From Desulfotignum sp. (lineage in GTDB: Bacteria > Desulfobacterota > Desulfobacteria > Desulfobacterales > Desulfobacteraceae): a DNA stretch of 64,000 nucleotides. The stretch lies in assembly GCA_011390635.1 (NCBI GenBank), contig JAABSA010000010.1, positions 15,610 through 79,609 of the forward strand, written 5' to 3'. Shown piece after piece: positions 28,592-56,481 of this stretch. Within the stretch, counting starts at the first letter, position 1. Each line of letters begins with the position of its first letter. Made by a program: the position numbers and the translations under genes. The notes beneath the pieces were generated by a model. The model did not search any database and was not told where the DNA came from. It saw nothing but the letters and a program-made list of their open reading frames with translations.

Positions 28592-30589
28592 ATGAGGTAC
28601 GCAGAAACAGGCTTTAATTTAGAGGTTGATCTTACCCGGGGGAATATCGAAAAGGTTGCAACAGATCCCAGGGACACCGAACTCTATCTGGGGGGATTGG
28701 GGACAAATGCCAAGATTTTATGGGACCGTGTGGGACCGGAGGTTACACCCTTTTCTCCGGAAAATCTGCTCATCTTCAGCGCAGGCCTGCTCTGCGGCAC
28801 CCCGGCAACCGGCTGCAACCGGACCATTGTGTCCACCATCTCCCCCCAGACCGAATTGATGGCCTTTTCCATGATGGGGGGGTTCTGGGCGCCGGAACTC
28901 AAATATGCCGGGTATGATAAGGTGATTTTGCAGGGCAAATCGGAAAAACTGGTCTACCTGTGGATTCACAACGATACCGTGGAGATCCGTGATGCTTCCC
29001 ATCTGGCCGGCAAAGGCGCCATCGAGACCGCCGAGCAGATCAGACAGGAACTTAAACAGCCCAAGGCCCAGGTGTCAGCCATTGGCCTGGCCGGTGAAAA
29101 CCGGGTCTATTATGCTTCTGTGGAGCAGGGCAGATCCTCTGCCAGCCGGGGCGGCATCGGTGCGGTCATGGGTGACAAGCGGGTCAAGGCCATTGCCGTG
29201 CGGGGTACCAAAGACATCAATCTGGCCAAACCGGAAGAGTTCCTGGGGTTGTGCAATGATGTTCTGGCTTATATCAAACACAGAGAAGAAAACCCCATCA
29301 AAGGGGTGATGCCCATTCTGGCGGGCCTGGGATCTCCCCAGGAAATGAAGGTCCATGATGAAAAATGGCATACGGAAAATTTCATGTGGGGCAACTCCCG
29401 GACCCGGCGCAAAGATTTCTGGAATGAGGACATTGAAAAAGAATGGACAGACACCCTGGAAGGCGCCCGGACCCGGCTGATATCCTGCTTTAATTGTCCC
29501 ATGAAATGCGGGGCCACCATCAGCATGCCGGGATTGCCCACCTATATGATGAAATGCTTTACCAAACTGACCTATACCATGGCCGCCTATGCTGATCTGG
29601 ATTTTGGTTTGCGTATCGCCCAGAAGGCCACCGAATATGGTCTGGATGGCTTTTCAGCTCCCCAGGTCATGGCATTCGCCCTGGAGCTGCTGGAAGACGG
29701 CATTTTGAAACAAGAGGATTTCCCTGGCCTGCCTGAAGACAATGAAGAGCGGTTCTATTATCTGCTGGACATGATTGTGAAAAGAGAAGGCATCGGCGAT
29801 GTCCTGGCCAAGGGCACCTACTGGGCGGCCAGGGAGATTGGCAACGGGGCCGAGGCATATGCCCACAACACCATCAAAAAACATGAACAGCTGCCCTTGA
29901 AATTGTCCATGCTCAATCCCATCTATTTTCTGATGTATTCAGTGGGGGAAAAAATCAACATCACCCAGATTGAAGGTCAGTTTCCCCAGGCCCCGTTTCC
30001 AAAGCGCGAACACAGGGAAAAATTCTGCGAAGACTGGATCCAGGTGCCCCATGAAAAATTCAAACAGTACTTTATTGACTGGGAACTGCGTGGGGAAAAT
30101 TCCATTCCATACTACCCTACCGTGGAAATGACCTGTGATATCGTGGAATGGCAGGAAATGATGCATTATATTGATGATGCCCTGGGTCAGTGTGCCGGAT
30201 TGTCTTCTTTTCCCTTAAAACCCCCTTATCATATCCACAATTATCCCAAATTCATCTCTGCCGGTGCCGGCATCGAAATGGACGAAGAAAGGCTCACCCG
30301 GGCGGCCAAGCGGTACCGGACCCTGGTCAGAGCCGTCAACATCCGGCGGGGCATGCGGAGAAAAGATGAAAAACCGCCTGAGAACCATTGGAAAAAGCGG
30401 TTTCCGGAACTGGAAGAAAAACTGTTGGACGGGTATTACAAGCTCAAAGGCTGGAATGAAGATGGCATCCCCACCAAAGAGACATTGGAGAACATGGATC
30501 TGGGCTATGTGGCAGACGAGTTTATCCAGCGGGGGATTTTGACGGATGAAGCAGCAGCAGACGTGCAAAAAGAAACACAGACCCAATAG
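28592..30589 (+). CDS. bamB: Class II benzoyl-CoA reductase, catalytic tungsten subunit BamB (AOR family)
   Basis: 665 aa. The protein starts MRYAETGFNLEVDLTRGNIE and belongs to the aldehyde:ferredoxin oxidoreductase family. The close similarity I recall to Geobacter BamB, together with the gene order, supports the call. Cubane ligands are CFNCPMKC near residues 299-304 and a last Cys in LGQCAG near 533. BamB holds tungsten-bis-pterin and reduces benzoyl-CoA to cyclohexa-1,5-diene-1-carboxyl-CoA without ATP. It heads the run bamBCDEFGHI on one strand. It could be another AOR, but the complete Bam gene order makes that unlikely. Confidence 0.92.
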   Translation: MRYAETGFNLEVDLTRGNIEKVATDPRDTELYLGGLGTNAKILWDRVGPEVTPFSPENLLIFSAGLLCGTPATGCNRTIVSTISPQTELMAFSMMGGFWAPELKYAGYDKVILQGKSEKLVYLWIHNDTVEIRDASHLAGKGAIETAEQIRQELKQPKAQVSAIGLAGENRVYYASVEQGRSSASRGGIGAVMGDKRVKAIAVRGTKDINLAKPEEFLGLCNDVLAYIKHREENPIKGVMPILAGLGSPQEMKVHDEKWHTENFMWGNSRTRRKDFWNEDIEKEWTDTLEGARTRLISCFNCPMKCGATISMPGLPTYMMKCFTKLTYTMAAYADLDFGLRIAQKATEYGLDGFSAPQVMAFALELLEDGILKQEDFPGLPEDNEERFYYLLDMIVKREGIGDVLAKGTYWAAREIGNGAEAYAHNTIKKHEQLPLKLSMLNPIYFLMYSVGEKINITQIEGQFPQAPFPKREHREKFCEDWIQVPHEKFKQYFIDWELRGENSIPYYPTVEMTCDIVEWQEMMHYIDDALGQCAGLSSFPLKPPYHIHNYPKFISAGAGIEMDEERLTRAAKRYRTLVRAVNIRRGMRRKDEKPPENHWKKRFPELEEKLLDGYYKLKGWNEDGIPTKETLENMDLGYVADEFIQRGILTDEAAADVQKETQTQ

Positions 30590-30606
30590 TGTGGAGGGCA
30601 AACACC

Positions 30607-31155
30607 GTGGCAAGTAAAGAAAAAGAAAAAAAAACAGTAAAGACCATTAAAATAGATGTGGATAAGTGTAACGGGTGCCGGGCCTGTGAAGTCATCTGCT
30701 CCTCTTTTCATGCATCACCAAAATACAGTTCCAATAACCCTGCCAGATCCAGGATACGCATTATCAGAGAGCCGTTGCGTGATATTTATGTGCCGGTGTA
30801 TGCCGGTGAATACACCATGGCCGAGTGCGCGGGCAGGGATAAATACACCATTGACGGCAAAGAATATGATGAATGTTCCTTCTGCCGGGCTTCCTGTCCG
30901 TCCAGAGATGAGTTCAAGGAACCCGATTCCGGCCTGCCTTTGAAATGTGACATGTGCGAAGGTGAAGATGAGCCCTTGTGTGTCAAATGGTGTCTGGTGG
31001 ATGCCCTGACCATTGAGGAGCGCGAAGAAGAAGTGGAAGACCAGGAAAAGATGGAAGATCTGGAAATTGGATTGGAATCTCTGGCCGACAAATACGGCAT
31101 GCAGACCATCATGGATACCCTTGCCCGCATGTCTGTAGATGACAAAAGCAAATAA
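30607..31155 (+). CDS. bamC: Benzoyl-CoA reductase Fe-S electron-transfer subunit BamC
   Basis: 182 aa from the GTG at 30607, eight bases after GGAGGG (30593-30598). It is a polyferredoxin-like protein: CNGCRACEVICSSFH at residues 18-32, CSFCRASCPSRDE in the middle, and CDMCEGEDEPLCVKWC later, giving about three [4Fe-4S] clusters. The acidic C-terminal third (EEREEEVEDQEKMEDLEIG) is likely helical. BamC forms the (BC)2 unit with BamB and passes electrons to its active site. It lies 17 bases after bamB. Confidence 0.88.
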   Translation: MASKEKEKKTVKTIKIDVDKCNGCRACEVICSSFHASPKYSSNNPARSRIRIIREPLRDIYVPVYAGEYTMAECAGRDKYTIDGKEYDECSFCRASCPSRDEFKEPDSGLPLKCDMCEGEDEPLCVKWCLVDALTIEEREEEVEDQEKMEDLEIGLESLADKYGMQTIMDTLARMSVDDKSK

Positions 31156-31167
31156 AAAGGACACACC

Positions 31168-32319
31168 ATGGAGACCATCGCTCCTTTTATAGAAGTAATC
31201 GACGAGATCAAAGAGGCCGGCGGAGATGCATTCCAATTGTGCTTCCAGTGCGGATTGTGCGATACAGTCTGTCCCTGGAACAGAGTCCGGCAGTTCAGCA
31301 TGCGCAAAATTGTCCGGGAAGCGGCATTCGGCCTGACGGAAATTGAAGGCGAAGATATCTGGCGGTGCACCACCTGCGGCACCTGTCCCTCCCAGTGCCC
31401 CCGGGGACTGGGCCAGATCGAGGTAAGCCAGGCCCTGCGCCGGGTGGCCACGGAATACGAGGTGTTCCCTGCATCCGTGAAATCAGCCAGAAGTGCCCGG
31501 GCCAGCGTCATATCCGAGGGCAACCCCCTCCAGGGAGAACGGTCCGGCCGTGGGGACTGGGCCAAAGATTTGTCTGTCAAATCTTTTGAACAGGGCATGG
31601 AAGTGCTGTATTTTGTAGGGTGCTATTTTTCCTATGATCCCCGCATGAAAAAAGTGGCGCAGGCCACCGCCAATATCCTGAACACGGCCGGGGTGGATTT
31701 TGGTATCCTGGGAGAAAACGAGAGCTGCTGCGGGGAGAGCATCCGTAAAATTGGCAGTGAAAAAGTGTTCACAGATCTGGCCAAAACCAATATCAAGACC
31801 TTTATCGACCATGGGGTGAAAAAGATCCTGGTCTCTTCTCCCCACTGCTACCATACATTTAAAAACGAATACCCGGAATTCATGGTCAATTTCGAGGTGA
31901 TTCACATGTCTGAATATCTTCTGGAGCTTATAAACACAGGCCGCCTGATTCTTTCAAAAGAGATGAACCAGACAGTGACCTACCATGATCCGTGTTATCT
32001 GGGACGTCATAACAACATGTATGATCCGCCCCGGCAGCTGCTTGGGAAAGTGTCGGGTCTTACCTTGTCGGAAATGGCGGACCATGGTAAAAACAGCCTG
32101 TGCTGCGGCGGCGGCGGCGGCAGGATCTGGATGGACACCCCCCGGGAGGAACGGTTTTCCGATATCCGCCTGGAACAGGCCACAGCAGCCGGGGCAAAGG
32201 TGCTGGTGACCTCTTGTCCCTATTGCATTACCAATTTTGAAGAAAGCCGCCTGAACCTGGAATATGAAGATGTGCTGGACATAAAAGATATCACGGAAAT
32301 CATCAATGATATGATTTGA
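31168..32319 (+). CDS. bamD: BamD, HdrD/GlpC-like Fe-S protein with CCG domains
   Basis: 383 aa. The N-terminus holds two [4Fe-4S] motifs, CFQCGLCDTVCPWNRV and CTTCGTCPSQCPRGLG. Two cysteine-rich CCG-type domains follow: ESCCGESIRKIG with CYHTFK, and CYLGRHNNMYDPP with CCGGGGGRIWMD and CPYCITNFE. This is the heterodisulfide-reductase D architecture, expected to carry noncubane clusters. In the Bam complex it links the HdrA-like BamE to BamBC. It starts 12 bases after bamC. Its last domain closely resembles that of the membrane protein at 42234. Confidence 0.87.
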   Translation: METIAPFIEVIDEIKEAGGDAFQLCFQCGLCDTVCPWNRVRQFSMRKIVREAAFGLTEIEGEDIWRCTTCGTCPSQCPRGLGQIEVSQALRRVATEYEVFPASVKSARSARASVISEGNPLQGERSGRGDWAKDLSVKSFEQGMEVLYFVGCYFSYDPRMKKVAQATANILNTAGVDFGILGENESCCGESIRKIGSEKVFTDLAKTNIKTFIDHGVKKILVSSPHCYHTFKNEYPEFMVNFEVIHMSEYLLELINTGRLILSKEMNQTVTYHDPCYLGRHNNMYDPPRQLLGKVSGLTLSEMADHGKNSLCCGGGGGRIWMDTPREERFSDIRLEQATAAGAKVLVTSCPYCITNFEESRLNLEYEDVLDIKDITEIINDMI

Positions 32320-32404: not shown

Positions 32405-35400
32405 GTGGTAAACAACGACGTACTGCCAATGGAAAATATGCAGCTGTTTTCCGACAGCCTGAAGGACAGAAATTTTGGAGACGTACTGGTTGTGGGCGGG
32501 GGAGTCAGCGGTATTCAGGCTTCTCTGGATCTTGCCACAGCTGGATTCAAGGTGTATCTGGTGGAAAAAAATCCCAGCATCGGCGGGCATATGTCCCAGC
32601 TGGACAAGACCTTTCCCACCAATGACTGTTCCATGTGAATACTGTCACCCAAACTGGTCGAGGTCGGCCGGCACCCAAACATAGAAGTACTTACCTTTAC
32701 GGAAGTGGATACCATAGAAGGGCAGAAGGGAGATTTTCAGGTGACCCTGAAAACCCGGCCCAGATATATCATAGAAGAAAAATGCACCGGGTGTACCACA
32801 TGCATGGAATACTGCCCCGTGGAATATCCGGATGCGTTCAACCAGGGAATTTCCACCAACAAGGCCGTGCATGTGTATTTCTCCCAGGCCATCCCGCTGG
32901 TGGCATATATTGATGATTCCTGTCTGTATCTCAAAGAAAAAAAATGTGATATCTGCCGGGGGGTATGCAAGACCGGGGCCATTGATTTTCGCCAGACACC
33001 CACCCGTACCCGGCTCAATGTGGGCGCGGTGATCCTGTCTTCGGGCATCACGCCGTTCGACCCGTCTGCCAAAGAAGAATACGGGTATAGCAAATATGGC
33101 AACGTGGTCACCAGTATGGATTATGAGCGGCTGTTGTCTTCCACCGGTCCCTATGGCGGCAAAGTGCTCAGGGCAAGCGACAAAAAGCATCCCAAAAATG
33201 TGGCCTGGATCCAGTGTGTGGGTTCCAGACGGGTGACCGAAGGAGACAACTCCTATTGCTCCGGTGTGTGCTGCACCTATACCCAGAAGCAGCTGATATT
33301 GACCAAAGAACATGACACCGGGGCAAAATGCACGGTATTTCACAATGATATCCGGTCATTCGGCAAGGATTTTGAGCGGTATTTCCAGCGGGCAGAAGCA
33401 TTGCCCGACACCCGGTTCATCAGAAGCTATGCATCCGTTGCCGGTGAAAATCCGGAAACCAAAGACATCCGGGTGCGGTATGCTACGGCTGATGAAGGGG
33501 TCAAAGAAGAAGAGTTCGACATGGTGGTGCTGTCCGTGGGACTGAACCCGCCCAAAGCGTATAAAGAAATATCCGAAAAATTCGGCATTGACATCAATGC
33601 CCACGGGTTCTGTGATATCGATTCTTCCAATCCGGTCCAGACCAGCCGGCCCGGTATCTTTGTGTCAGGCGCCTTCCAGGGTCCCACAGATATTCCGGAA
33701 TCGGTCTTTACAGCCAGCGGTGCCGGGTCCCGCACAGGGGAGCTGCTGCACTACCGCCGGGGAAAACTTTCCCGGGAACGCATTTATCCGGAAGAACGGG
33801 ATGTGTCGGAACAAGAACCGAAAATAGGGGTGTTTGTCTGCCACTGCGGGGCCAATATCTCCAGTGTCGTGAACGTGCCTTCCACGGTGGAATATGCCAA
33901 AACCCTGCCCCATGTGGTGTATGCCACTGAGCAGATTTTTTCCTGTGCCACCAATTCAGCCAGGGAGATTACCGATCTTGCCGTGGAAAAAGGATTGAAC
34001 CGGGTGGTGATTGCGGCCTGCTCCCCCAGGACCCTGGAACCGCTGTTCAGAGATACCCTGCGGGAAGCCGGGTTGAATCAGTATTACCTGGATATGGCCA
34101 ATATCAGAGAACACTGCTCCTGGGTCCATGCCAAACAAAAAGATGAGGCCACGCAAAAGGCCAAAGATATCATGCGCATGTCCGTGGCACGGGCCGCCCA
34201 TCTGGAGCCGTTGAAGGAATTCGATCTGCCCGTGAACAAGACCGCCCTGGTGGTGGGAGGCGGTATTGCCGGCATGACCTGTGCCCTGTCCATTGCAGCC
34301 CAGGGCCATACGGTCGAACTGGTGGAAAAAAGCAAAGATCTGGGCGGTATGGCCAGGCGGATTCATACCACGCTGGAGGGCCTGGATGTGCAGGCCTATC
34401 TGGATGACCTGATTGCCAAAGTGTACAAAAATCCGCGCATCCATGTGTCCCATGAGGCGCAGATCATGGATGTGGCCGGGTATCTGGGCAATTTCACCAC
34501 CACGGTCTCAACCGAAGGCCGCACCAAAACCATCAAACACGGGGCATCGGTCCTGGCCATCGGCGCTGATGTGTATCAACCCGTTGAATACCTGTATGGC
34601 CAAAATGATGCGGTATTCACCCACCTGGAAATCGGTGAAGAGATCGCCAAGGGCAATGAAAAGGTTGTTGAAGCCCAGAGCCTGGTGATGATCCAGTGTG
34701 TGGGATCACGCAATGAACAATTCAATTACTGCTCCCGGGTGTGCTGCGGCCATGCTGTGAAAAATGCGTTGAAGCTCAAGGAAAAAAATCCGGATATGCG
34801 CATTTATATTCTGTTTCGGGATATGCGCACCTATGGGTTCAAAGAAGATGACTACCGCAGGGCTTCGGAACTGGGGGTGCAGTTCATTCGGTATACTCCT
34901 GAAGACCCGCCGGAAGTGGAAGTGGTATCAGAAGTCGGGGCAGACATGATCCGGGTCACGGTGACGGATCCCATTTTGGGCCAGCGCCTGGAACTGGATG
35001 CGGATGTGCTGTCCCTGGCAGCGGCGGTGCGGCCCCCCCGGTCCATCCAGGAGATTGCCGGCTTGTTCAAGGTGACCCTGAGTCCGGATGATTTTTTCAA
35101 GGAAGCCCATGTGAAACTCAAACCGGTGGAGTTTGCCGCAGATGGTGTGTTTTTGTGCGGTACGGCCCATTACCCCAAACATATCCCTGAATCCATCAAC
35201 CAGGCATACGGGGCAGCCGGCCGGGTCATTACGCTGCTGTCAAAAGATACGGTGGTGGCATCGGGTTCCGTGGCAAAGGTGGATGAATATGCATGTGTTT
35301 CCTGCGGTGCCTGTATTACCGCATGTACCTATGATGCCATCCAGTTCCATGATACAAAAAAGGGAAAAAAAGCCATTGTCAACCCGATTCTGTGCAAGGG

Positions 35401-35545
35401 AGACGGACTGTGCAATGCCAAGTGTCCCACCAATGCCATTGTGTTAAAGCACTTTACCAATGATGCTTTGTGCGGGCAGATTGATGCAGCGGTAACTGCT
35501 GAAGATATTATGGAACAGATGGATGCTGTACTGGAAGAAGCATAA
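32405..35545 (+). CDS. bamE: BamE, HdrA-like flavoprotein, selenoprotein with in-frame TGA
   Basis: 1046 aa if TGA at 32636-32638 is read as selenocysteine 78. Around it the frame reads [14 protein letters not shown], where HdrA proteins have CSMC or CSMU. The start is GTG at 32405, after GAGGAG. The protein is a tandem HdrA: FAD motif [16 protein letters not shown] near residue 26, ferredoxin [12 protein letters not shown] near 127, IQCVGSR near 269, then a second FAD motif [13 protein letters not shown] near 616 and IQCVGSR near 762, ending with two [4Fe-4S] motifs near 960-1010. BamE is thought to bifurcate or confurcate electrons. A SECIS-like hairpin follows the TGA. Confidence 0.9.
32654..32671 (+). 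promoter_or_regulatory. SECIS-like hairpin for bamE
   Basis: CTGGTCG pairs with CGGCCGG (with G-U pairs) around the four-base loop AGGT. It lies 15-33 bases after the in-frame TGA, with a GGT loop, as in bacterial SECIS elements read by SelB. Confidence 0.65.
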
Positions 35546-35584: not shown

Positions 35585-36358
35585 ATGAGTGCTGGGCAAG
35601 AATTTACGCCGAAACTGCTGGGATTTGTCTGCCACTGGTGAGCATACGGTGCTGCCGACCTGGCTGGAGTTTCCAGACTACAATATGCAAATGAGATGCG
35701 GTTGATCCGTGTGATGTGTTCAGGCCGGGTGGATTTGGAGTTTATCTTCCGGGCCTTTGCCAACGGACAGGACGGGGTGTTCATCGGCGGGTGCAAACTG
35801 GATGAATGCAATTATGTCACCCACGGCAATTATGATGCCCTGGCCAACACCTATATGGCCAAAAAAATACTGGGACATATCGGGCTCAATCCCGACAGAT
35901 TGAGAACCGAGTTCATGTCCGGTGCAGACGGTAACCTGCTGGCACAGTATACCGATGAATTTGCCAGACAGATCAAGGAGATGGGGCCTTTGGGAAAAGC
36001 AGAGGGCATGACAAAAGAAACACTGAGGTTCAAACTTGCGGCAGCCAGAAATCTGGTGCCTTTCATGCGCCTGGCGGAAAGAGAAAAACTGCGGGTCCCC
36101 GTGAAATCAAAGCAGACATACAAGCAGTTTTTTGAAAACCCGCAGACAGACCGGTTGTTTGACCTATTGTTAGCAGACAAGCTCGCGGTCAGCCAGATTC
36201 TTTTGCTGCTCAAGGACAAGCCGTTGTCAACCAGTGATATTTCACAGCGCCTGGGATTGAATCCTTCCGATGTATCCCGCCATATGATCAGCTCATCACG
36301 GCATGGTATGGTGATGTATGATACTGCCAGCAACTGCTATACACTGGCCCGGGCCTAA
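35585..36358 (+). CDS. bamF: BamF, MvhD-like subunit, selenoprotein with in-frame TGA and C-terminal winged helix
   Basis: 257 aa if TGA at 35639-35641 is selenocysteine 19. The frame reads FVCHWUAYGAADLAGVS, matching the FVCNWC motif of MvhD/HdrF-type proteins. The start is ATG at 35585, after AAGGAG. Residues 1-130 are the MvhD domain ([2Fe-2S]), with VMCSGRVDLEFI and FIGGCKLDECNY. Residues 195-255 look like a winged helix (STSDISQRLGLNPSDVSRHMISS). MvhD-type subunits carry electrons between NuoF-like or hydrogenase partners and HdrA. It lies 39 bases after bamE. Confidence 0.88.
35664..35676 (+). promoter_or_regulatory. SECIS-like hairpin for bamF
   Basis: CTGGA pairs with TCCAG around GTT, 23-35 bases after the in-frame TGA. 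It is a short but correctly placed stem with a G-T loop. It is weaker than the bamE element. Confidence 0.5.
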
Positions 36359-36387: not shown

Positions 36388-36840
36388 ATGGAAATTGAAA
36401 AAATTGATCAGATCATTGACAGGCACAATGGAGAGGCCAGCAACCTGCTCCAGATCATGCTGGATATTCAAAAAGAGAACAACTGGCTTTCCAAACAGGC
36501 ACTGGCACGGGTCAGCGAGAAACTGTCCGTTCCTTTGACCCGGATTCAGCACATTGCCACCTTTTATAAAGCCTTCAGCCTGGTGCCCAAAGGCCGCCAT
36601 AAAGTGCATATCTGTGTGGGAACCGCTTGTCATGTCCGGGGTGCCACAAGGATTCTGGACACGGTGGAAGATGCCACGGGCATCAAACCCGGCGAAACCG
36701 ACCTGGACCTGAAATTCAGCCTGGAAACAGTCAACTGCCTGGGCTGCTGTGCCCTGGGGCCTGTCATGGAAGTGGATGGCAAGGTCCATGGGAAAATGTC
36801 ACCGGTCAAGACGGCCCGGACCTTAAAAATATATGAGTAG
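36388..36840 (+). CDS. bamG: BamG, NuoE-like [2Fe-2S] thioredoxin-fold subunit
   Basis: 150 aa. A helical N-terminus (NEW-type, LLQIMLDIQKENNWLSKQAL) leads to the thioredoxin-like [2Fe-2S] domain with ligands in HICVGTACHVRGA and NCLGCCALGPVMEVDG. This is the 24-kDa (NuoE/HoxE) fold. In Bam it forms the NADH-linked module with BamH and BamI. It starts 29 bases after bamF. Confidence 0.9.
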   Translation: MEIEKIDQIIDRHNGEASNLLQIMLDIQKENNWLSKQALARVSEKLSVPLTRIQHIATFYKAFSLVPKGRHKVHICVGTACHVRGATRILDTVEDATGIKPGETDLDLKFSLETVNCLGCCALGPVMEVDGKVHGKMSPVKTARTLKIYE

Positions 36841-36849
36841 GGGAAAATT

Positions 36850-38781
36850 ATGGCGCGGTTAGATACGCCTGAAGCACTGGAAAGCTTCAGGCAGCAAATA
36901 TTATCCAGAAGAGATCCGAACAACCCTTGTGTTTCCATCTGTGCCGGTGCCGGGTGTGTGGCATCCGGAGCCGATGAAGTCATCGCGGCCTTTGAAAAAG
37001 AAATACAGGACCAGAGGCTGTCTGCCACGGTTTCCACCAAAGGCACGGGATGTCCCGGGTTCTGCGAACAGGGTCCTGTGGTGGTCATTTATCCCGAAGA
37101 GATCTGTTATCTCCAGGTTGCGGCAAAGGATGTGCCGGAAATCGTGGCACAGACCATCAAAGAAAAGCAGGTGGTGGAGCGGTTGTGTTATAAAGATCCG
37201 GCCACCGGAGAACGGGCGGTCAAAGAGTCGGATATATCGTTTTACAAAGCCCAGCAGCGCACGGTGTTGTGCAATAATATCAAAATCGATTCCAAAAGCA
37301 TTGATGATTATATAGCGCTGGGCGGCTATGCAGCCCTTGCCAAAGCCCTGGGTGAAATGACGGATCTGGAAGTGCTGGAAGAGGTCAAAAAATCCAATAT
37401 CCGGGGCAGGGGCGGTGCCGGATTTCCCGCCGGCAGAAAATGGGAAGGTTCCAGAAATGCACCAGATCCCATCAAATATGTGATTGTCAATGCAGATGAA
37501 GGAGATCCGGGTGCGTTCATGGACCGGGCCCTTTTGGAAGGCAATCCCCATTCCATCCTGGAAGGTCTGATCCTTGGCGGCTATGCCGTCAAGTCCAATG
37601 AAGGGTATTTCTACGTGCGCCAGGAATATCCTCTGGCCGTGGAAAACATCAACCTGGCCATCAAACAGGCCCGGGCCTATGGTCTGTTGGGAGAAAACAT
37701 CCTGGGATCGGGATTTGACTTCAATGTGATCGTCCACCAGGGAGCAGGGGCCTTTGTGTGCGGAGAGTCCACAGCGCTGATGACATCTCTGGAAGGCAAG
37801 GCAGGCGAGCCCAGACCCAAGTATGTCCGGTCCAATGTCAAGGGATTATGGGAACGACCCTCTGTTTTGAATAACGTGGAAACCTGGGCCAACATTCCCT
37901 TGATCATCAACCATGGGGCGGACTGGTTCACCTCCGTGGGAACAGAGAGCTCCAAAGGCACCAAGATCTTTTCCCTGGTGGGAAAAATCACCAACACCGG
38001 TCTGGTGGAAGTGCCCATGGGCATGACCCTCAAAGAGATCATCTATGATATCGGAGGTGGTATCCCTGGGGGCAAAAAATTCAAGGCTGTCCAAACCGGC
38101 GGCCCGTCAGGCGGTTGCATTCCGGAACATCTGCTGGATCTGCAGGTGGGGTTTGACGAGCTGACCAAGGCCGGCTCCATGATGGGATCCGGCGGCATGA
38201 TCGTCATGGATGAGGACACCTGCATGGTGGATGTGGCAAGGTATTTCATTGCGTTTCTCACCGATGAATCCTGCGGCAAATGCGTGCCCTGCAGAGAAGG
38301 CCTGCGACAAATGCACCGGATACTGACCAACATCACACAGGGAAAAGGGAAAAAAGGGGACATTGAACTGCTGGAGGAGTTGTCTGAAACCGCGGTGGAA
38401 GCATCGTTGTGCGCCCTGGGCAAAAGCGCACCCAATCCGTTTTTAAGTACGCTCAAATATTTCAGGGATGAATATGAAGCCCACATCAATGACCAGCGCT
38501 GCCCGGCCCTGTCCTGCAAGGAACTGATTTCATTTTACATCGATCCGGACAAGTGCACAGGCTGCGGCACCTGCCGCAAACAGTGCCCGGCGGATGCCAT
38601 AGACGGGGACAAAAAAATTATACACATCATTGACCAGGAAAAATGTACCCGGTGCGGCACCTGTTTTGAGGTGTGCCCGCCCAAATTTTCTTCTGTAATG
38701 AAACTGTCGGGCGAGCCGGTGCCGGACCCTGTGGCACCGGAAGAGCGAACCATTCGAAAAAAGACAACAGCGAAAGGCTAG
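36850..38781 (+). CDS. bamH: BamH, NuoF-like NADH/FMN subunit with extra ferredoxin domain
   Basis: 643 aa. Domains in order: an N-terminal thioredoxin-like [2Fe-2S] domain (residues 20-100, CAGAGCVASGA and GTGCPGFCEQGP); the NuoF core with the NADH and FMN loop RGRGGAGFPAGRKW near 190 and NADEGDPGAFMDR; an SLBB domain; the [4Fe-4S] helical bundle with SCGKCVPCREG near 475; and a C-terminal 2[4Fe-4S] ferredoxin (CTGCGTCRKQCP and CTRCGTCFEVCP). It should bind FMN and exchange electrons with NAD(H), as in bifurcating hydrogenases. It lies nine bases after bamG. Confidence 0.93.
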   Translation: MARLDTPEALESFRQQILSRRDPNNPCVSICAGAGCVASGADEVIAAFEKEIQDQRLSATVSTKGTGCPGFCEQGPVVVIYPEEICYLQVAAKDVPEIVAQTIKEKQVVERLCYKDPATGERAVKESDISFYKAQQRTVLCNNIKIDSKSIDDYIALGGYAALAKALGEMTDLEVLEEVKKSNIRGRGGAGFPAGRKWEGSRNAPDPIKYVIVNADEGDPGAFMDRALLEGNPHSILEGLILGGYAVKSNEGYFYVRQEYPLAVENINLAIKQARAYGLLGENILGSGFDFNVIVHQGAGAFVCGESTALMTSLEGKAGEPRPKYVRSNVKGLWERPSVLNNVETWANIPLIINHGADWFTSVGTESSKGTKIFSLVGKITNTGLVEVPMGMTLKEIIYDIGGGIPGGKKFKAVQTGGPSGGCIPEHLLDLQVGFDELTKAGSMMGSGGMIVMDEDTCMVDVARYFIAFLTDESCGKCVPCREGLRQMHRILTNITQGKGKKGDIELLEELSETAVEASLCALGKSAPNPFLSTLKYFRDEYEAHINDQRCPALSCKELISFYIDPDKCTGCGTCRKQCPADAIDGDKKIIHIIDQEKCTRCGTCFEVCPPKFSSVMKLSGEPVPDPVAPEERTIRKKTTAKG

Positions 38782-38787
38782 GTTATC

Positions 38788-39405
38788 ATGGGTGATATTC
38801 AATTTGAGATCGATGGGAAAACCGTGACAGCGGATCAGGGCATGACTGTTCTGGAGGCCGCCCAGAAAGAAGGAATTTATATTCCCACCCTGTGTCACCA
38901 TGAAAAGCTTGAACCGTTCGGCGGATGCCGGCTGTGTATCGTGGAGGTGGAGGACCGGGGGTGGACAAAATATGTGGTGTCCTGTGTATTTCCGGCGGCA
39001 AACGGTATCATCGTCAGGACCCGGTCAGAGAAGGTGGACCGGCTGCGCAAGACCATCATCGAGCTGCTCATGGCCCATGCACCGGATGCACCGGATCTTT
39101 TGAAACTGGCCAGAGAATACGGGGCAGATCCCGACCGGTATGAAAGAGATCCCTCTTTTTGCATCCACTGCGGCCTGTGTGTGAGGTATTGTGCAGAAGT
39201 GGCCGGCAAGCATGCTGTCGGATTTGTAGACCGGGGGATCAACAAGGAGATCAGCTTTGTGCCGGAAATCGCGGCAAAAGAGTGTAATGACTGCAAGGAG
39301 TGCTTTCCCTTGTGTCCCACCTCCTATCTCCAGGCGGCATTTGTCTACACCCAGGCCCTGTCATTTCCGGATGCTGTGAAAACCGGTCAGTCAGCCGGAA
39401 AATAG
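38788..39405 (+). CDS. bamI: BamI, NuoG N-terminal-like Fe-S subunit
   Basis: 205 aa. A [2Fe-2S] plant-type domain has ligands in PTLCHHEKLEPFGGCRLCIVEV. A helical segment then leads to [4Fe-4S] motifs CIHCGLCVRYCAEV and CNDCKECFPLCP. The protein corresponds to the N-terminal third of NuoG and lacks the molybdopterin part, the usual form in HndA- and Bam-type modules. It is an electron relay next to BamGH. It starts six bases after bamH. Confidence 0.9.
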   Translation: MGDIQFEIDGKTVTADQGMTVLEAAQKEGIYIPTLCHHEKLEPFGGCRLCIVEVEDRGWTKYVVSCVFPAANGIIVRTRSEKVDRLRKTIIELLMAHAPDAPDLLKLAREYGADPDRYERDPSFCIHCGLCVRYCAEVAGKHAVGFVDRGINKEISFVPEIAAKECNDCKECFPLCPTSYLQAAFVYTQALSFPDAVKTGQSAGK

Positions 39406-39475: not shown

Positions 39476-40312
39476 ATGGAAAATAAAAATAATACCCAGC
39501 AGTTCACGGTATTCCAATGCCGGTCAAAAACCTGCGATGCGGTTCCCATGGAATTGATCGGGGAAGAGCCGTTTTTGATCCGCATTGAAGACAAGTCCTA
39601 TTCCGTTGTCATGCGCACCCCGGGAAACGAAATTCATCATGCGGCCGGGTTCTGCTTAGGCGAAGGACTGGTGAGCACCCCGGATGATATCAAAACCATC
39701 GGATATGATGTCGATCTGGACCCCAATGTCGTTGATGTCTGGCTGTCTGAGCAGCGGCGCAAAAAAATCAGTCATCTGTTGCAGCGAAACGCGTTTGTCA
39801 GCCAGACGAGCTGCGGCATCTGCGGGAAAGAGATGCTCAGAGACATCCAGTCGGCCGTAGAGCCGGCTCCGGACGGGTTCAACTTTACCCTTGATCAGGC
39901 CTTTGGCTGTATTGCGGCATTGTCCAAAAACCAGAAATTTTACCAGCGCACCAGAGGGTCCCATGCTGCGCTGGTGTTCGGGGAAAACGGTGATGTACTG
40001 GCCTTTGCCGAGGATGTGGGACGTCACAACGGCCTGGATAAGGCCATTGGCAAGGCATTTTTAGACCATACCCTGGACCGGGCCCGGATACTGGTATTGT
40101 CATCGCGCATCAGCTATGAACTGGTGCAGAAAGCGGCCCGGGCCAGAATCCAGGTGATGATCTCCAATTCCCGTCCCACTGCCCTGGCCGCCCGGATGGG
40201 GGCCTCATTGAACATGACCCTGGCCTTTCCCACCGGGAATGATCAGCTCATGGTGGTAAGCGGTGAAAACAGAATTATCCAGGATAAAAACAACATGCGG
40301 GTGATCTACTGA
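39476..40312 (+). CDS. fdhD: Sulfurtransferase FdhD family (Mo/W enzyme maturation)
   Basis: 278 aa. The active cysteine loop TSCGICGKEMLRDIQ near residue 120 matches the FdhD CxxC motif, followed by RTRGSHAAL, AEDVGRHNGLDKAIGKAFL and LSSRISYELVQKAARA. FdhD delivers sulfide from IscS to the molybdenum or tungsten of formate dehydrogenases. No formate dehydrogenase is in this window, so it may serve BamB or an enzyme elsewhere. It lies 70 bases after bamI. Confidence 0.9.
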   Translation: MENKNNTQQFTVFQCRSKTCDAVPMELIGEEPFLIRIEDKSYSVVMRTPGNEIHHAAGFCLGEGLVSTPDDIKTIGYDVDLDPNVVDVWLSEQRRKKISHLLQRNAFVSQTSCGICGKEMLRDIQSAVEPAPDGFNFTLDQAFGCIAALSKNQKFYQRTRGSHAALVFGENGDVLAFAEDVGRHNGLDKAIGKAFLDHTLDRARILVLSSRISYELVQKAARARIQVMISNSRPTALAARMGASLNMTLAFPTGNDQLMVVSGENRIIQDKNNMRVIY

Positions 40313-40358
40313 ATGATAATGGAAGGCCCGGATATGATACAACTATGAGGAGGAACAA

Positions 40359-41141
40359 GTGAAAATTCTTACAACTGTAAAAAAAGTCGTTGATGTGGAA
40401 TTGAATATCCATGTGGAAAACGGTGCCATTATGGAAAAAGGGTTGCAGTATGTGATCAATGCCTGGGATGAAAATGCAGTGGAAGCGGCTGTCCAGCTCA
40501 AGGAGGCCCACAAGGCGGAAACCACCCTGGTATCTTTGGGCAGCGGAGACAATACCGATATTATCCGCAAATGCTATGCCATGGGCATCGACAATGCCAT
40601 TCACATTGATGACCCGGCCCTTGCAAAGGCAGACTCCCAAATCTTTGCAAGGGTGCTGCAAAGAGTATATGAAGCCGGTGATTATGACCTGGTGATCACC
40701 GGCAAACAGGCCCAGGACACGGACGCCGGTCAGGCCGGTATCATGCTGGGTGAGTTTCTGGGCATCCCCTGTGTCAGCAATGTCATTGAGATCAAGGTAA
40801 CGGATGATACCCATATCCAGGTGTCCCGGCTCGGGGATGCAGGCACGGAAATAGTTGATCTGACCCTGCCTGCCGTGGTAACGGTGAGTGACAGCATCAA
40901 TGAACCCCGGCTGCCGGCCATGCGGGGCATCATGATGGCCAAAAAAAAGAAGATCACTGTCATGGACCTGGCCGGTCTGGGCACTTCCTTTGAAGAGGTG
41001 GGGGGGACCGCGCGCAAATCCGAAATTGTAGAATTCATGGCCCAGGAAAAACGCAAGGGCGGCCGGAAATTTGAAGGTGACCCGGCCGAGATCACCGCAA
41101 AGGTGGTGCAGTTACTGGTCAATGAAGCAAAGGTTTTATAG
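40359..41141 (+). CDS. etfB: Electron transfer flavoprotein beta subunit (ETF 1)
   Basis: 260 aa from GTG at 40359, after GAGGAGGA. It has the ETF-beta fold: ILTTVKKVVDVELNIHVENG, the conserved VINAWDENAVEAAVQLKE, and the AMP-binding DLVITGKQAQDTDAGQAG. It pairs with the alpha subunit at 41239. The partner membrane oxidoreductase at 42234 suggests transfer of electrons from acyl-CoA dehydrogenases to quinone. It starts 46 bases after fdhD. Confidence 0.93.
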   Translation: MKILTTVKKVVDVELNIHVENGAIMEKGLQYVINAWDENAVEAAVQLKEAHKAETTLVSLGSGDNTDIIRKCYAMGIDNAIHIDDPALAKADSQIFARVLQRVYEAGDYDLVITGKQAQDTDAGQAGIMLGEFLGIPCVSNVIEIKVTDDTHIQVSRLGDAGTEIVDLTLPAVVTVSDSINEPRLPAMRGIMMAKKKKITVMDLAGLGTSFEEVGGTARKSEIVEFMAQEKRKGGRKFEGDPAEITAKVVQLLVNEAKVL

Positions 41142-41238
41142 CCGGCATTTCCGGACATATTCGGTTGCCTTTTACCGCATGTAAAAACGTACCCATATCT
41201 AATATCATACCCATATCAAAATTGTAAGGATAGTGATT

Positions 41239-42198
41239 ATGACAAACATACTTGTAGTAGCAGATATCAAGCAGGGCGCACTTAAGGGAAGCGCCGCCGA
41301 ACTGTTGTCAAAAGCCAAGGCCCTGGGTGCCAAAACCGCCGCAGTGGCCGTGGGGCACAAAGTGGCCGATCTGGCCCCCCAGCTGGCGGCTGCCGGATCA
41401 GACACCCAGTATGTGGTGGATGACCCGTCCCTGGAATTGTTTTCCGCCGGTCCCTTTGCTGCGGCTGTTGTGGAAGCGGCCAAAGCGTTTTCTGCAGACA
41501 TGGTCTGGTTTGGATTTTCTGAAACCGGCAAGGCAGCAGCCCCCCGGGTGGCGGTGCAGCTGGATGCAGCCTGCGCCACGGAAATCATTGATGCCGCCAT
41601 TGACGGAGATAATATTCATATAGTCCGGCCGGCCATTGCCAACAAGGTGCTCCAGAGAGTCAAAATCAATGCGCCCAAACTGGTGTCGGTTGTGCGGGCC
41701 GGGGCGTTTGAAGCAGATCCGGAAGCTACGGGCACCGAAAATGTAATCACCCTGGATCCCCCTGAAAAAGATCCGGCTGCTGCGGTCAAAGAACTCATCT
41801 CCGATGCTGCAGGGGAAATCGATCTGGCGGATGCTGATATTGTCGTTTCCGTGGGCCGGGGGGCCAAAGACCAGACCGGTATTGACCTGGTAAAAGACCT
41901 GGCCGACAGCCTGGCAGCCGGATTCGGATCTTCCCGTTCCATGGTGGATGCTGGTTTGATGGCCCATAACAAACAGGTGGGCCAGACCGGTAAAATCGTG
42001 GCCCCATCCCTGTACGTGGCTGTGGGGATTTCCGGCGCCATCCAGCACCTGGCCGGAATGAACGGCTCCAAGGTGATTCTGGCGGTGAACAAGGATCCGG
42101 AAGCACCAATTTTTAATGTGGCGGATTTTGGGATTGTCGGGGACCTGTTTGATGTGATACCATTGCTCAAGGAAGAAATTAAAAAGATCCGGGCCTGA
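41239..42198 (+). CDS. etfA: Electron transfer flavoprotein alpha subunit (ETF 1)
   Basis: 319 aa from the ATG at 41239, eight bases after AAGGA; a GTG two codons upstream is possible. The N-terminal half is alanine-rich. The C-terminal FAD domain has IVVSVGRGAKDQTGID, GSSRSMVDAGLMAHNKQVGQTG and the classic SGAIQHLAGM motif. It binds the electron-carrying FAD. A 97-bp gap from etfB holds no gene. Confidence 0.93.
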   Translation: MTNILVVADIKQGALKGSAAELLSKAKALGAKTAAVAVGHKVADLAPQLAAAGSDTQYVVDDPSLELFSAGPFAAAVVEAAKAFSADMVWFGFSETGKAAAPRVAVQLDAACATEIIDAAIDGDNIHIVRPAIANKVLQRVKINAPKLVSVVRAGAFEADPEATGTENVITLDPPEKDPAAAVKELISDAAGEIDLADADIVVSVGRGAKDQTGIDLVKDLADSLAAGFGSSRSMVDAGLMAHNKQVGQTGKIVAPSLYVAVGISGAIQHLAGMNGSKVILAVNKDPEAPIFNVADFGIVGDLFDVIPLLKEEIKKIRA

Positions 42199-42233
42199 GC
42201 GCCCCAAACCCGAAATTTGCGCATGAGGTAGAT

Positions 42234-44336
42234 ATGAGTCCCCTGTTGATGACACTTGTTCTTTTGGTGGGCCTAGGTATTTTTGCCAGGACCATGTATC
42301 GGAAAATTCTTTTGTTGACGGCCCTGGAACCTGCTGACCGGTTCAACCATATCAAGGACCGCCTGAAAAATATGGTGGTCATTGCGTTGGGCCAGAAACG
42401 CCTGGTGGGGCGTAAAAAAGAGCGGGCATCCGGTATCATGCACGCTCTGATCTTCTGGGGATTCTGTGTACTGCTCATCCGGTCCATCACCTTGTACGGC
42501 GAAGGCTATGTCCATGGATTTCAGCTGCCCCTGCTGGGGGAATCTTCTATTCTGGGATATCTGTATATCGCCTTAAAGGATATCATGGAAGGCGTGGTGC
42601 TGCTCATGGTGATCTGGGCTTTCTATCGGCGCATGGTGGTGAAACCGGCCCGGCTTCATAACACCTGGGAGGCCTATCTGGTTCTGGGCATGATCGGGGT
42701 GCTGATGATATCGGATCTGTTGTATGACGGTTCCCGGTTCATGCTCATCACTGCCCACGGGAATCCCGTGGACCTGCATTTTTTCAACAATTCCACATTC
42801 GGCCAGGAGTTTATCTGGACACCGGTGACGGTACTGGCCGGAAATGTGATTTCCGGATTTTCCGCCGTGGGGCTGGAACGGGTCATGGTCCTGATGTTCT
42901 GGGTCCATATCATCACCCAGCTTGTATTTTTGAACTTTCTGCCTTTGGGTAAGCATTTTCATGTCATCACCTCATTACCCAATGTGTTTTTCAAGAGCCT
43001 GGGCTATCCCCATGAAAAGATCAAACTGCTGGACCTGGAAGATGAATCGGTGTGGGAGGACGAGACCTTGGGGGTCAACCACCTGCACCAGCTGAACTGG
43101 AAACAGGGGCTGGATCTGTATACCTGTACGGAATGCGGCCGGTGCAAGGAGGTGTGTCCCACCTATGTCACGGACAAGCCGCTGAACCTGCATGATTTCA
43201 ACGACACACTCAAGGCGGAACTGTATGCCAACGCCGACAACTTGATTCACCGGGCCGGACTTGCCCGAACCCTTACAGGTGATGCAGAAGCTGATGCAAA
43301 AACCAAGGAAAAGATGGCGGTGTTCAAGAGTGAAAAAGCCCTGGTGGGAGATGTTATTGCCCTGGATACCCTGTGGGCCTGCACCACCTGCCGGGCCTGT
43401 GAACAGGTGTGTCCCGTTACCATTGAACAAGTACCCCGGATCATTGCCATGCGCCAGGGCCAGACACTGATGCAGGGAGAATATCCCCAGGAACTCAACA
43501 CCGCTTTTAAAGGACTGGAGCGTAACGGCAATCCCTGGGGTATCGGGTATGACAAACGCGCTGACTGGGCCGAGGGTCTGGATGTAAAGCGCATGGCCGA
43601 TGACCCGAACGTGGATTACCTTCTGTGGGTGGGATGTGCCGGCTCATTTGATGACAGAACCCAGAAGGTGTCCAAGGCTCTGGTGAAAATTCTCAAAGCG
43701 GCAAAGGTGGATTTTGCCATTCTGGGCACCGAGGAAAAATGCACGGGTGATTTTGCCCGCCGGACCGGCAATGAAATGATGTACCAGGCGATGGCCACGG
43801 AAAACATTGAAACCCTGAACAATTACAAGGTGAAAAAAATTATTGCGGCCTGTCCTCACTGCCTGAACACCCTCAAGCATGATTATCCCCAGATGGGGGG
43901 CCATTACGAGGTGATTCATCACACCGATTTTATCAACCAGCTGATTGCGGATGGCAAAATCCGTGTGAAAAAATCTCTTGGCGGTGCACTCACCTATCAT
44001 GATCCCTGTTACCTGGGCCGGTACAATGAGATCTATGATGCCCCAAGAAATGTCCTGAACAACCTGTCAAGCCAGGGTCTTTCCGAACTGCCTCGCCACG
44101 GTACGGAAAGCTTTTGCTGCGGTGCCGGCGGCGGGCGGATGTGGATGGAGGAAACCATCGGGTCCCGGATCAATGTGGAACGGTCCAGAGAGATTGTGCA
44201 GGAAAAGGCAGATACCGTGGCCGTGGGCTGTCCCTTCTGTCTGACCATGATTGAGGACGGTATGAAAGAACTGGACAAGGATGAACAGATAAAAACCAGA
44301 GACATTGCCGAACTGGTGGCAGAGCACCTGGCGTAA
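42234..44336 (+). CDS. Membrane Fe-S ETF:menaquinone oxidoreductase (EMO-like)
   Basis: 700 aa. The N-terminal 260 residues hold about five to six transmembrane helices like nitrate reductase gamma (b-heme type) with conserved His residues. A cytoplasmic part follows with CTECGRCKEVCPTYV near 298, CTTCRACEQVCPVTI near 385, and two CCG domains (EEKCTGDFAR with CPHCLNTLKHDYP, and YLGRYNEIYDAP with CCGAGGGRMWME). This matches the EMO family that passes ETF electrons to menaquinone in fatty-acid and aromatic degraders. It follows etfBA directly. Confidence 0.85.
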   Translation: MSPLLMTLVLLVGLGIFARTMYRKILLLTALEPADRFNHIKDRLKNMVVIALGQKRLVGRKKERASGIMHALIFWGFCVLLIRSITLYGEGYVHGFQLPLLGESSILGYLYIALKDIMEGVVLLMVIWAFYRRMVVKPARLHNTWEAYLVLGMIGVLMISDLLYDGSRFMLITAHGNPVDLHFFNNSTFGQEFIWTPVTVLAGNVISGFSAVGLERVMVLMFWVHIITQLVFLNFLPLGKHFHVITSLPNVFFKSLGYPHEKIKLLDLEDESVWEDETLGVNHLHQLNWKQGLDLYTCTECGRCKEVCPTYVTDKPLNLHDFNDTLKAELYANADNLIHRAGLARTLTGDAEADAKTKEKMAVFKSEKALVGDVIALDTLWACTTCRACEQVCPVTIEQVPRIIAMRQGQTLMQGEYPQELNTAFKGLERNGNPWGIGYDKRADWAEGLDVKRMADDPNVDYLLWVGCAGSFDDRTQKVSKALVKILKAAKVDFAILGTEEKCTGDFARRTGNEMMYQAMATENIETLNNYKVKKIIAACPHCLNTLKHDYPQMGGHYEVIHHTDFINQLIADGKIRVKKSLGGALTYHDPCYLGRYNEIYDAPRNVLNNLSSQGLSELPRHGTESFCCGAGGGRMWMEETIGSRINVERSREIVQEKADTVAVGCPFCLTMIEDGMKELDKDEQIKTRDIAELVAEHLA

Positions 44337-44378
44337 GCAGCCTGGTCCATAAAGACAAAAGAGAAACAAATATAAGAA

Positions 44379-44427
44379 AACACAGGCAAAACAAAACGAT
44401 GTCGTCTTTGTTTTGCCTGTGTTGTTT
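44379..44427 (+). terminator. Strong hairpin terminator after the membrane oxidoreductase gene
   Basis: AACACAGGCAAAACAAA (44379-44395) pairs perfectly over 17 bp with the arm at 44407-44423, extended by ACGA/TCGT. The descending arm is T-rich and is followed by GTTT. It separates the bam-ETF run from the next genes. Confidence 0.75.
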
Positions 44428-44442
44428 ACCGATGGAGGATGC

Positions 44443-45564
44443 ATGCAATATCACATGCCGGCACGGCTGTATTTCGGACCCGGAGAGATTCAGCGGGTCT
44501 CAACGGTTATTCAGGCAAAAAATCCGGTCCTGGTGACGGACAAGGGCGTGGTTCGGGCAGGGTTTGTTGCGCCGGTACTGGACCAGTTGGGAAAGATACC
44601 GGTATTTGACGGCATCGAGGCAAACCCCAAATCCGATACCATCAACAACATTGCAAAAGAGCTGCGGCAGCTTGCACCTGATCTGGTGATCGGTCTGGGG
44701 GGCGGCAGTCCTCTGGATGCGGGAAAAGCCCTGGCCCTTCTGGCCACCAATCCGGGAAATATCCAGGATTATGAAGGCAGAGAAAAATATACCAAAGATC
44801 CGTTGCCGTTCATGGCCATTCCCACCACCTGCGGCACCGGGTCAGAGGTCACCTGGGTGTCGGTGATCACCGATGTGGACCGCAAATTCAAGATGAGCAT
44901 CAAGGGACCCAAACTGTATCCGGCTGTCTCCATTGTGGACCCGGATCTTATCGCCACACTGCCTCAGCCCATGATCGCGGCCACCGGCCTGGATGCCCTG
45001 ACCCATGCCGTGGAAGCCTATCTGTCAAAGCCTGCCACCCTGATCACCGACACCCATGCGGTAAGGGCGGTTGGGCTTATCCTGGGATCCATTGAAAAGG
45101 CGTTTGCCGATATCCAGAGCAATGCCAGGCAAAGAGAAGATCTAATGTACGGCTCCATGGTGGCGGGCCTGGCATTCGGCAATGCAGATGTCACGGCGGT
45201 GCACTGCATCTCCGAGTCCATCGGGGCTTTGTATGACATTCCCCACGGGGTGGCCAATGCCATGTTTCTGCCCCATGTACTGGAGTACAACCTGCCGGCC
45301 TGCACCCAAAAAATGGCGGTCCTGGCCCGGATCACCGGCATTGCTGCCGCTTCCGATGAACAGGCAGCCAGAACTTTTATTCAGAAAATAAAGGACCTGT
45401 CCCGGGAGCTGGAAATTCCCGGGTTCAGGTCCCTGGATATCGACCCGGACCAGTTCGCCCTGATTGCCGACATGTCTTGTAAGAACAATTCCAATGCATC
45501 CAATCCCCGGGATCTGGGTCCGTCTGATTACAGGAACATCCTTGAAGCGGCCCATGGGGCCTGA
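44443..45564 (+). CDS. Iron-containing alcohol dehydrogenase
   Basis: 373 aa from the ATG at 44443, after GGAGG. The group III ADH fold is clear: NAD-binding GLGGGSPLDAGKALALLA near residue 87, AIPTTCGTGSEVTWVSVI, and the metal site with DALTHAVEAYLS and PHGVANAMFLPHVLEYN, giving Asp and His ligands. It would interconvert a primary alcohol or hydroxy acid with its carbonyl using NAD(H). Its role in the aromatic region is unclear. Confidence 0.9.
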   Translation: MQYHMPARLYFGPGEIQRVSTVIQAKNPVLVTDKGVVRAGFVAPVLDQLGKIPVFDGIEANPKSDTINNIAKELRQLAPDLVIGLGGGSPLDAGKALALLATNPGNIQDYEGREKYTKDPLPFMAIPTTCGTGSEVTWVSVITDVDRKFKMSIKGPKLYPAVSIVDPDLIATLPQPMIAATGLDALTHAVEAYLSKPATLITDTHAVRAVGLILGSIEKAFADIQSNARQREDLMYGSMVAGLAFGNADVTAVHCISESIGALYDIPHGVANAMFLPHVLEYNLPACTQKMAVLARITGIAAASDEQAARTFIQKIKDLSRELEIPGFRSLDIDPDQFALIADMSCKNNSNASNPRDLGPSDYRNILEAAHGA

Positions 45565-45595
45565 CCCTTTTGGGATAAAAAGCGAAAGAACTGGT

Positions 45596-46738
45596 ATGGA
45601 CCTTAATCCCTGCATGAAGCATCAGCTTATCCGCAAGACGGTCCGGGAATTTGCGGAAAATGAGATCCGGCCCCGGGCCGCGGAAATGGACAAGGGGCCG
45701 GGATTCCCCGATGATCTCATGGAAAAGATGAAGCCGCTGCATTATTTCGGCCTCCAGGTGCCAGGGCATCTGGGCGGCGCAGACCTGGATACCGTCAGCT
45801 ATGCCATTGTGGTGGAGGAGATCTCCCGGGTATCTGCGGCACTGGGGCTGTGCATTACGGTGCACAACAGTGTGGGGATTTATCCTATCCTCCGGTTCGG
45901 TACCAGGGAACAAAAGCAGCAGTTTGTGCCGCCCATGGCAGCGGGCGAGAGTATCGGTGCATTTTGTCTTACCGAAGCCAATGCCGGTTCCGATGCCGGC
46001 GGGGTGGAGACAGTGGCCCGGGAGACGGCCCACGGGTTTGTCATCAACGGCACCAAAATTTTTGTGACCAACGGCGGGATCTGCGGCACCATCCTGGTCT
46101 TTGCCGTGTCAGACAGTGATCCGGGCAAACCCGGTGTGTTTATCGTTGAAAACCACACCCCGGGTTTCAGTGTGGGAGAAATCGAAGATTTGTGCGGCAT
46201 GCGGGCCAATCCCGTGGCATCCTTGTTTTTTGAGGACTGTGCGATTCCGGCAGACCACTGCCTGGGAATTCCCGGCCAGGGGCTGAAAATCGGACTGACA
46301 GCGCTCGATACAGGCCGTATCGGCATCGCAGCCCAGGCCCTGGGCATTGCCCAGGCCGCGTTTGAAGAATCCGTTTCCTATGCCCAGGCCCGCCAGCAGT
46401 TCAACAAGCCTATCAGCCGGTTCCAGACCATACAGAATTACCTGGCGGACATGGCTGTCCAGATCGATGCCGCAAGGCTTCTGCTTTATCGTGCCGCTGA
46501 TGTGAAAGACACCGGCAGGCCGTTTTCTGCCGAAGCTGCTATGGCCAAGCTCCACTGCAGCACCACGGCACGGATGGTGACCGATCTGGCGGTGCAGATC
46601 CATGGGGGATACGGCTACAGCCGGGAATATGACGTGGAGCGGTATTTCAGGGATGCCAAGGTCACCGAGATTTATGAGGGCACCAGTGAGATCCAGCGGA
46701 TGGTCATCGCCCGCCACATTTTGACCCGGCCCACCTGA
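45596..46738 (+). CDS. Acyl-CoA dehydrogenase
   Basis: 380 aa from the ATG at 45596; the frame is open upstream into the previous gene. It has the standard FAD motifs: CLTEANAGSDAGG, KIFVTNGGICG, ARQQFNKPISRFQTIQ and QIHGGYGYSREYDVERYFRD. The catalytic Glu is in IYEGTSEIQR near residue 367. Neighbouring ETF 2 is the likely electron acceptor. Its substrate could be a C4-C7 acyl-CoA of the benzoate pathway (for example glutaryl- or pimeloyl-CoA), but the specificity residues cannot be judged by eye. Confidence 0.92.
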   Translation: MDLNPCMKHQLIRKTVREFAENEIRPRAAEMDKGPGFPDDLMEKMKPLHYFGLQVPGHLGGADLDTVSYAIVVEEISRVSAALGLCITVHNSVGIYPILRFGTREQKQQFVPPMAAGESIGAFCLTEANAGSDAGGVETVARETAHGFVINGTKIFVTNGGICGTILVFAVSDSDPGKPGVFIVENHTPGFSVGEIEDLCGMRANPVASLFFEDCAIPADHCLGIPGQGLKIGLTALDTGRIGIAAQALGIAQAAFEESVSYAQARQQFNKPISRFQTIQNYLADMAVQIDAARLLLYRAADVKDTGRPFSAEAAMAKLHCSTTARMVTDLAVQIHGGYGYSREYDVERYFRDAKVTEIYEGTSEIQRMVIARHILTRPT

Positions 46739-46765
46739 TATACCGTATAATATAAAGGCATTTTC

Positions 46766-56206: not shown

Positions 56207-56224
56207 GCCATCAGGTTTTACACA

Positions 56225-56383: not shown

Positions 56384-56481
56384 ATATTATGGCTTTATAC
56401 TGGTTTCATCACATCATGTCAAGGGGTGGGAACGCCCTGCCGGAATCGTTGTCCGGCAGGGCTGATAAAAAAATGGAAACG

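Follow-up and report, generated by a model that had tools for sequence, protein, structure and literature searches.

A conserved in-frame TGA predicted to encode selenocysteine in bamE, and a second in bamF, of a Desulfotignum benzoyl-CoA reductase cluster

Introduction

Does the TGA codon that interrupts bamE in a Desulfotignum genome end the gene, or is it read as selenocysteine (Sec)? Judging by its title, a 2004 study by Peters et al. reportedly deals with selenoproteins in benzoate metabolism. The window analyzed here, a stretch of 64,000 nucleotides, carries an HdrA-like gene broken once by TGA, and a preliminary description, made from the letters alone, had taken this codon to specify Sec. 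HdrA and FrhD/MvhD count among the established families of selenoproteins; in the accessible parts of PMC1794560, bacterial HdrA and FrhD selenoproteins are recorded several times in Syntrophus and Syntrophobacter, and those of PMC2702500 describe Sec-containing HdrA (HdrA/HdrL) and MvhD in Desulfobacterium autotrophicum.

Results

Genomic context

Domain matches place bamB- to bamI-type subunits in order around bamE, which is the layout of a class II benzoyl-CoA reductase cluster:

28592–30589, plus strand: bamB, tungsten/molybdenum aldehyde:ferredoxin oxidoreductase-type subunit (Pfam AFOR_N 1.3e-69, AFOR_C 4.8e-63)
30589–31155, plus strand: bamC, 4Fe-4S protein (weak Fer4 matches, cluster position)
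31168–32319, plus strand: bamD, CCG-domain, HdrC/HdrB-like protein (CCG 4.9e-37)
32405–35545, plus strand: bamE, predicted HdrA-like selenoprotein of 1046 residues with the TGA read (frame, domain and structure matches)
35585–36358, plus strand: bamF, MvhD/FlpD-like predicted selenoprotein with an ArsR-like HTH at its C-terminus (domain matches, in-frame TGA)
36388–36840, plus strand: NuoE-like thioredoxin-type 2Fe-2S subunit of the bamGHI module (2Fe-2S_thioredx 1.9e-48)
36850–38781, plus strand: NuoF-like NAD(H)/FMN subunit, bamH type (NuoF family 2.5e-143, under the model cut-off; Complex1_51K 6.8e-43)
38788–39405, plus strand: HoxU/NuoG-N-like 2Fe-2S/4Fe-4S subunit (HoxU 4.5e-37, under the model cut-off; Fer2_4 7e-19)

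The bam names were assigned by similarity and gene order; a partial list of the G. metallireducens bam genes is available in PMC1924859. The cluster has the bamB–I layout of a class II (ATP-independent) benzoyl-CoA reductase, with substrate and activity predicted from the genes, and the ordered cluster together with the HdrA matches described below bears out the name bamE given in the preliminary description. Further downstream (39476–48618) lie an fdhD-like gene, two electron-transfer flavoprotein pairs, a CCG/Fe-S-type protein and an acyl-CoA dehydrogenase, and TRAP transporter genes occupy the minus strand upstream. At gathering thresholds, Rfam returned for the window a cobalamin riboswitch (56219–56386, minus strand, 77.1 bits) and one tRNA, and nothing else.

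Reading frame and homology

The interrupting codon is:

32636–32638, plus strand: in-frame TGA, predicted Sec codon, BamE residue 78 (TGA in 76 of 78 readable loci)

Translated with this TGA read as one residue, the plus-strand frame 32405–35545 runs unbroken for 1046 residues and holds no second TGA, as the preliminary description had claimed. The residue number 78 rests on GTG 32405 as the start codon, which is preceded by a GAGGAGA stretch. With the TGA taken as a stop, the mechanical ORF list yields precisely the two pieces that had been foreseen: an upstream fragment of 77 residues and a 946-residue ORF with a GTG start (32705–35545). TGA terminates 8 of the 19 ORFs picked as genes in the window, and is thus still a stop in this organism. 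An open frame past a TGA was rejected as evidence in itself, a crude rule giving 29 such frames on both strands of the window, bamE and bamF included. The case of bamE goes beyond chance because of homology on either side of the TGA, retention of the codon in relatives, frozen synonymous sites and compensatory changes in a downstream hairpin.

BamE matches HdrA models in three stretches (NCBIfam HdrA2: 1.1e-280, 933 bits, under the model cut-off of 1100) and the solved HdrA chains 5odc (7.8e-177) and 8rvu, and in both the profile and the structure matches the homology is present before and after the TGA. Residue 78 aligns ungapped with a cysteine of 5odc and 8rvu (DCSICIL / DCSMCIL), in agreement with the CSMC position proposed initially; since residue 27 corresponds to 5odc residue 146 with no gap up to residue 78, Sec78 would by arithmetic equal Cys197 of the archaeal HdrA 5odc. 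In HdrA the region around Cys197 probably has its function at the flavin and the Fe-S centres. The same column holds Cys in the relatives L173 and L174 (both TGC), L048 and L090. BamE differs from the solved complexes in two respects: (i) they have Cys where BamE has a predicted Sec, and (ii) the stretch of BamE that matches the N-terminal domain of HdrA sits mid-protein (residues 470–628), between two FAD modules, unlike in 5odc and 8rvu.

The existence of the 946-residue ORF would allow a different account, in which translation stops at the UGA to give a 77-residue peptide and re-initiates at GTG 32705 to give a working BamE. Such a protein would be cut off from its first FAD-binding motif (residues 26–65), and nothing would then hold the TGA and the hairpin constant, which makes this route extremely improbable.

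Conservation of the TGA in relatives

We examined the site in two overlapping searches, which share contigs and are not independent. In the larger, 80 loci were kept of 269 encoding a relative, selected for similarity to the query, and the site was readable in 78: 76 have TGA, and two (L173 and L174), which are without the hairpin sequence, have TGC for Cys. Six of the 80 loci were missed by the motif search; inspected by eye, L112, L129, L159 and L167 have TGA, and a contig end cuts L127 and L137. The nearest loci, with BamE 91–93% identical, belong to Desulfotignum MAGs. The second search covered the best matches listed from 59 genomes, our own included, with 30 loci examined; of the 27 that were readable, 26 have TGA and one, the 48% identical L048, has Cys. 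At an identity of at least 65%, all 24 fetched and readable loci of this search have TGA, the window's own among them. Outside the 30 loci, the matches listed at this level comprise two TGA copies (in genomes G011 and G001) and two stop-free HdrA copies, each 69% identical, in the same-genus genomes G011 and G008; in the G011 copy, which is part of a different HdrA/MvhD/MetF-like cluster, the site holds Cys.

Could the TGA have arisen from faulty sequencing, or could it mark a pseudogene with a nonsense mutation? The assembly is in 98 contigs, and one base change would give Cys. Against this, the same TGA recurs in separate assemblies whose labels span many genera and reach into some further phyla, the frame downstream is intact, and the hairpin is frozen; we regard an error or a pseudogene as having next to no likelihood.

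The bamE hairpin

Downstream of the TGA lies a candidate recoding element:

32654–32671, plus strand: bSECIS-type hairpin in bamE with a 7-bp stem and the loop AGGU (fold, compensatory changes, frozen codons)

The hairpin, CUGGUCG-AGGU-CGGCCGG, begins after a 15-nt spacer from the TGA and spans +19 to +36 counted from the T of the TGA (CUGGUCGAGGUCGGCCGG). The preliminary description had noticed it as a SECIS-like element 15–33 nt downstream, and covariation now lends it support. According to the accessible text of PMC13188914, the bSECIS model has a loop of 3–9 nt, a stem of 4–16 bp, a G in the first two loop positions, a UGA-to-loop distance of 16–37 nt and a minimum free energy of −7.5 or lower. 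The bamE hairpin fits this model with a loop of 4 nt, a stem of 7 bp, a G second in the loop and a UGA-to-loop distance of 22 nt; its minimum free energy is −9.1 kcal/mol for the 18-mer and −10.2 for 48 nt. Folding energy was rejected as evidence for the hairpin, with z = −0.03 against shuffles.

The alignment comprised 73 sequences (60 distinct), namely the window and 72 of the 76 TGA loci. All seven pairs form in each of the 60 distinct sequences (420/420 cells), and compensatory double changes occur at pair 19–36 (C-G to A-U, two rows) and pair 25–30 (G-C to C-G, two rows). None of 500 shuffles and none of six slid versions reached covariation at this level, two of seven pairs and four cells. 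We also analyzed codons in 23 full-length relatives, seven of the 30 loci having been dropped as partial (L040, L045, L046, L047) or distant (L048–L050). Where a degenerate codon specifies a conserved residue (359 cases), the codon itself is invariant in 11, and five of these are found among the six at codons 83–90, in the hairpin (hypergeometric p = 5.7e-8, a value that treats kin sequences as independent and a region chosen post hoc). The distant Sec-type HdrAs L049 and L050 (47–48% identical) keep the hairpin letter for letter.

Selenocysteine machinery

The preliminary description had proposed a search of the genome for selA, selB, selC and selD. Three of them are present, all over curated cut-offs (selA 601.4, selB 341.7 and selD 369.5 bits); selC was not found in the assembly, although eight of the 13 genus genomes carry it with a score over the cut-off. 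The lack of selABC genes, which the preliminary description had named as refuting, is touched on by selC alone. The selD gene (G000:C26:12486-13409) itself has one in-frame TGA, and the selenophosphate synthetase of this genome is probably a selenoprotein too.

In the assembly, which is 96.4% complete in 98 contigs, the best match to the Rfam tRNA-Sec model, with 150 of 544 first-look candidates scored, reaches 40 bits, short of the cut-off of 47, and is an ordinary tRNA. Neither the DNA of a relative's selC locus nor a selC pattern revealed the gene in the assembly, and ARAGORN found none in the stretches around selA, selB, selD and the matched loci. Four other genomes of the genus (77–87% complete) likewise gave no selC over the cut-off. 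One contig, C83, has the sequence that borders the relative's selC locus on one side, with no tRNA; it continues for ~3.7 kb with other genes, so that the break does not fall at a contig end. The peptidase that lies beside selC in the relative G004 finds only 26% identical matches in our genome. Either selC resides in unassembled DNA, or it has moved or been lost with a segment. We favour unassembled DNA as the simplest reading, because the genome retains selA, selB and selD along with two genes of Sec type.

The failure to find selC in the assembly would also suit a suppressor tRNA that reads UGA as cysteine or another standard residue. This is very improbable, given that selA, selB and selD are retained, that the SECIS-type hairpin is conserved with compensatory changes, and that several of the 8 genus genomes with selC have the same bamE TGA and hairpin; moreover, on 14 short loci ARAGORN reported no UCA tRNAs other than the relatives' tRNA-Sec.

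Two genomes of the genus, G011 (L090:10913-12982) and G008 (C1:576722-579503), carry a second, divergent tRNA-Sec gene (UCA; 55.8 and 58.2 bits) that immediately precedes a second selB; in G011 this selB is 31% identical to the selB of the window genome. The pair adjoins an hdrA/mvhD/metF-like cluster, whose HdrA and MvhD are Cys forms in G011. Alongside it each genome has selB and selC of the usual kind, and searches identified one selA per genome.

A second in-frame TGA in bamF

The next gene after bamE also contains an in-frame TGA with a hairpin of its own, which the preliminary description had missed:

35639–35641, plus strand: in-frame TGA in bamF, predicted Sec codon, residue 19 from ATG 35585, context CHW-U-AYGAAD (TGA in 73 of 74 loci)
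35664–35676, plus strand: bSECIS-like hairpin in bamF, CUGGA-GUU-UCCAG (kept by the majority of loci; compensatory change of U-A to G-C in one case)

The mechanical bamF ORF (35696–36358) is 37 residues short of the 257 of full-length BamF, and its match to FlpD does not begin before profile position 28, as expected if the start is lost to the TGA. In the larger set, the bamF motif was found in 74 of 80 loci, 73 with Sec and one with Cys. The hairpin reads GCUGGAGUUUCCAG in 64 of 72 sequences, with one compensatory variant, GCGGGAGUAUCCCG; three sequences depart from the form, and the top pair is lost in one. Here too folding energy was rejected as evidence (z = −0.37).

Both sites could be read in 72 loci, of which 70 are Sec/Sec for BamE/BamF, one (L173) is Cys/Sec and one (L174) is Cys/Cys; in L174 the MvhD motif precedes the HdrA motif. 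The distant loci L049 and L050 pair a Sec HdrA with a Cys MvhD, and Sec pairing is therefore not a general HdrA rule.

Discussion

Based on these observations, we propose, at a probability of roughly 95%, that bamE encodes a full-length HdrA-like subunit into which Sec is inserted at UGA codon 78 by way of SelB and the hairpin. The feature noticed at the outset is confirmed, and its interpretation as Sec insertion is well supported at the level of sequence. A ribosome arriving at codon 78 would meet SelB with Sec-tRNA(Sec), bound to the hairpin 15 nt further on, and insert Sec. The selenol would take the place of the HdrA cysteine (Cys197 of 5odc) in the first FAD module. Its probable effect there is to tune an electron-transfer centre of a BamE–BamF relay that connects the NAD(H) module with the active site of BamBC.

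A Sec-containing BamE has been published before, for Desulfococcus multivorans, and the bamE of the window is a well-conserved example of a kind known from earlier work. The accessible text of PMC5109826 reports for D. multivorans BamE (dmul_C24500/10) a UGA codon for Sec that is followed by a SECIS, together with selA, selB and selD. That case likewise concerns an in-frame UGA and a SECIS in bamE of a sulfate reducer, in another genus; the comparison is by gene, no residue number being given in that text. It lists five Sec genes, including an mvhD elsewhere in the genome and not bamF, which was either overlooked there or has Cys in that species. In the selenoprotein HdrAs of Deltaproteobacteria, Clostridia and methanogens, which are of the same family, Sec is an alternative to Cys and the adjoining MvhD/FrhD is often a Sec form as well; the contexts given in the available parts of PMC1794560 and PMC2702500 are hydrogenase, formate dehydrogenase and Hdr clusters, whereas BamE belongs to a benzoyl-CoA reductase cluster.

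For bamF, the accessible portions of PMC1924859, PMC5109826, PMC12016498, PMC5736913 and PMC13119186 hold no statement of a Sec codon; PMC13119186 mentions selenite binding. The accessible text of Zhang et al. (PMC1794560) lists one FrhD for G. metallireducens, which may be BamF.

The bamE finding brings no new mechanism, and its interest is mainly one of annotation: two gene calls are corrected, as bamE and bamF alike would otherwise be annotated in truncated form. The compensatory hairpin changes add support for Sec in BamE over many genomes. It is tempting to go further and to regard BamE and BamF as a coupled selenoprotein pair of class II benzoyl-CoA reductases, whose selenols might form one unusually low-potential relay required for ATP-independent ring reduction. 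We consider this speculative and rather unlikely; if true, the enzyme would be selenium-dependent at two steps. Sec in bamE and bamF would tie the aromatic-ring reduction of this organism to its selenium supply.
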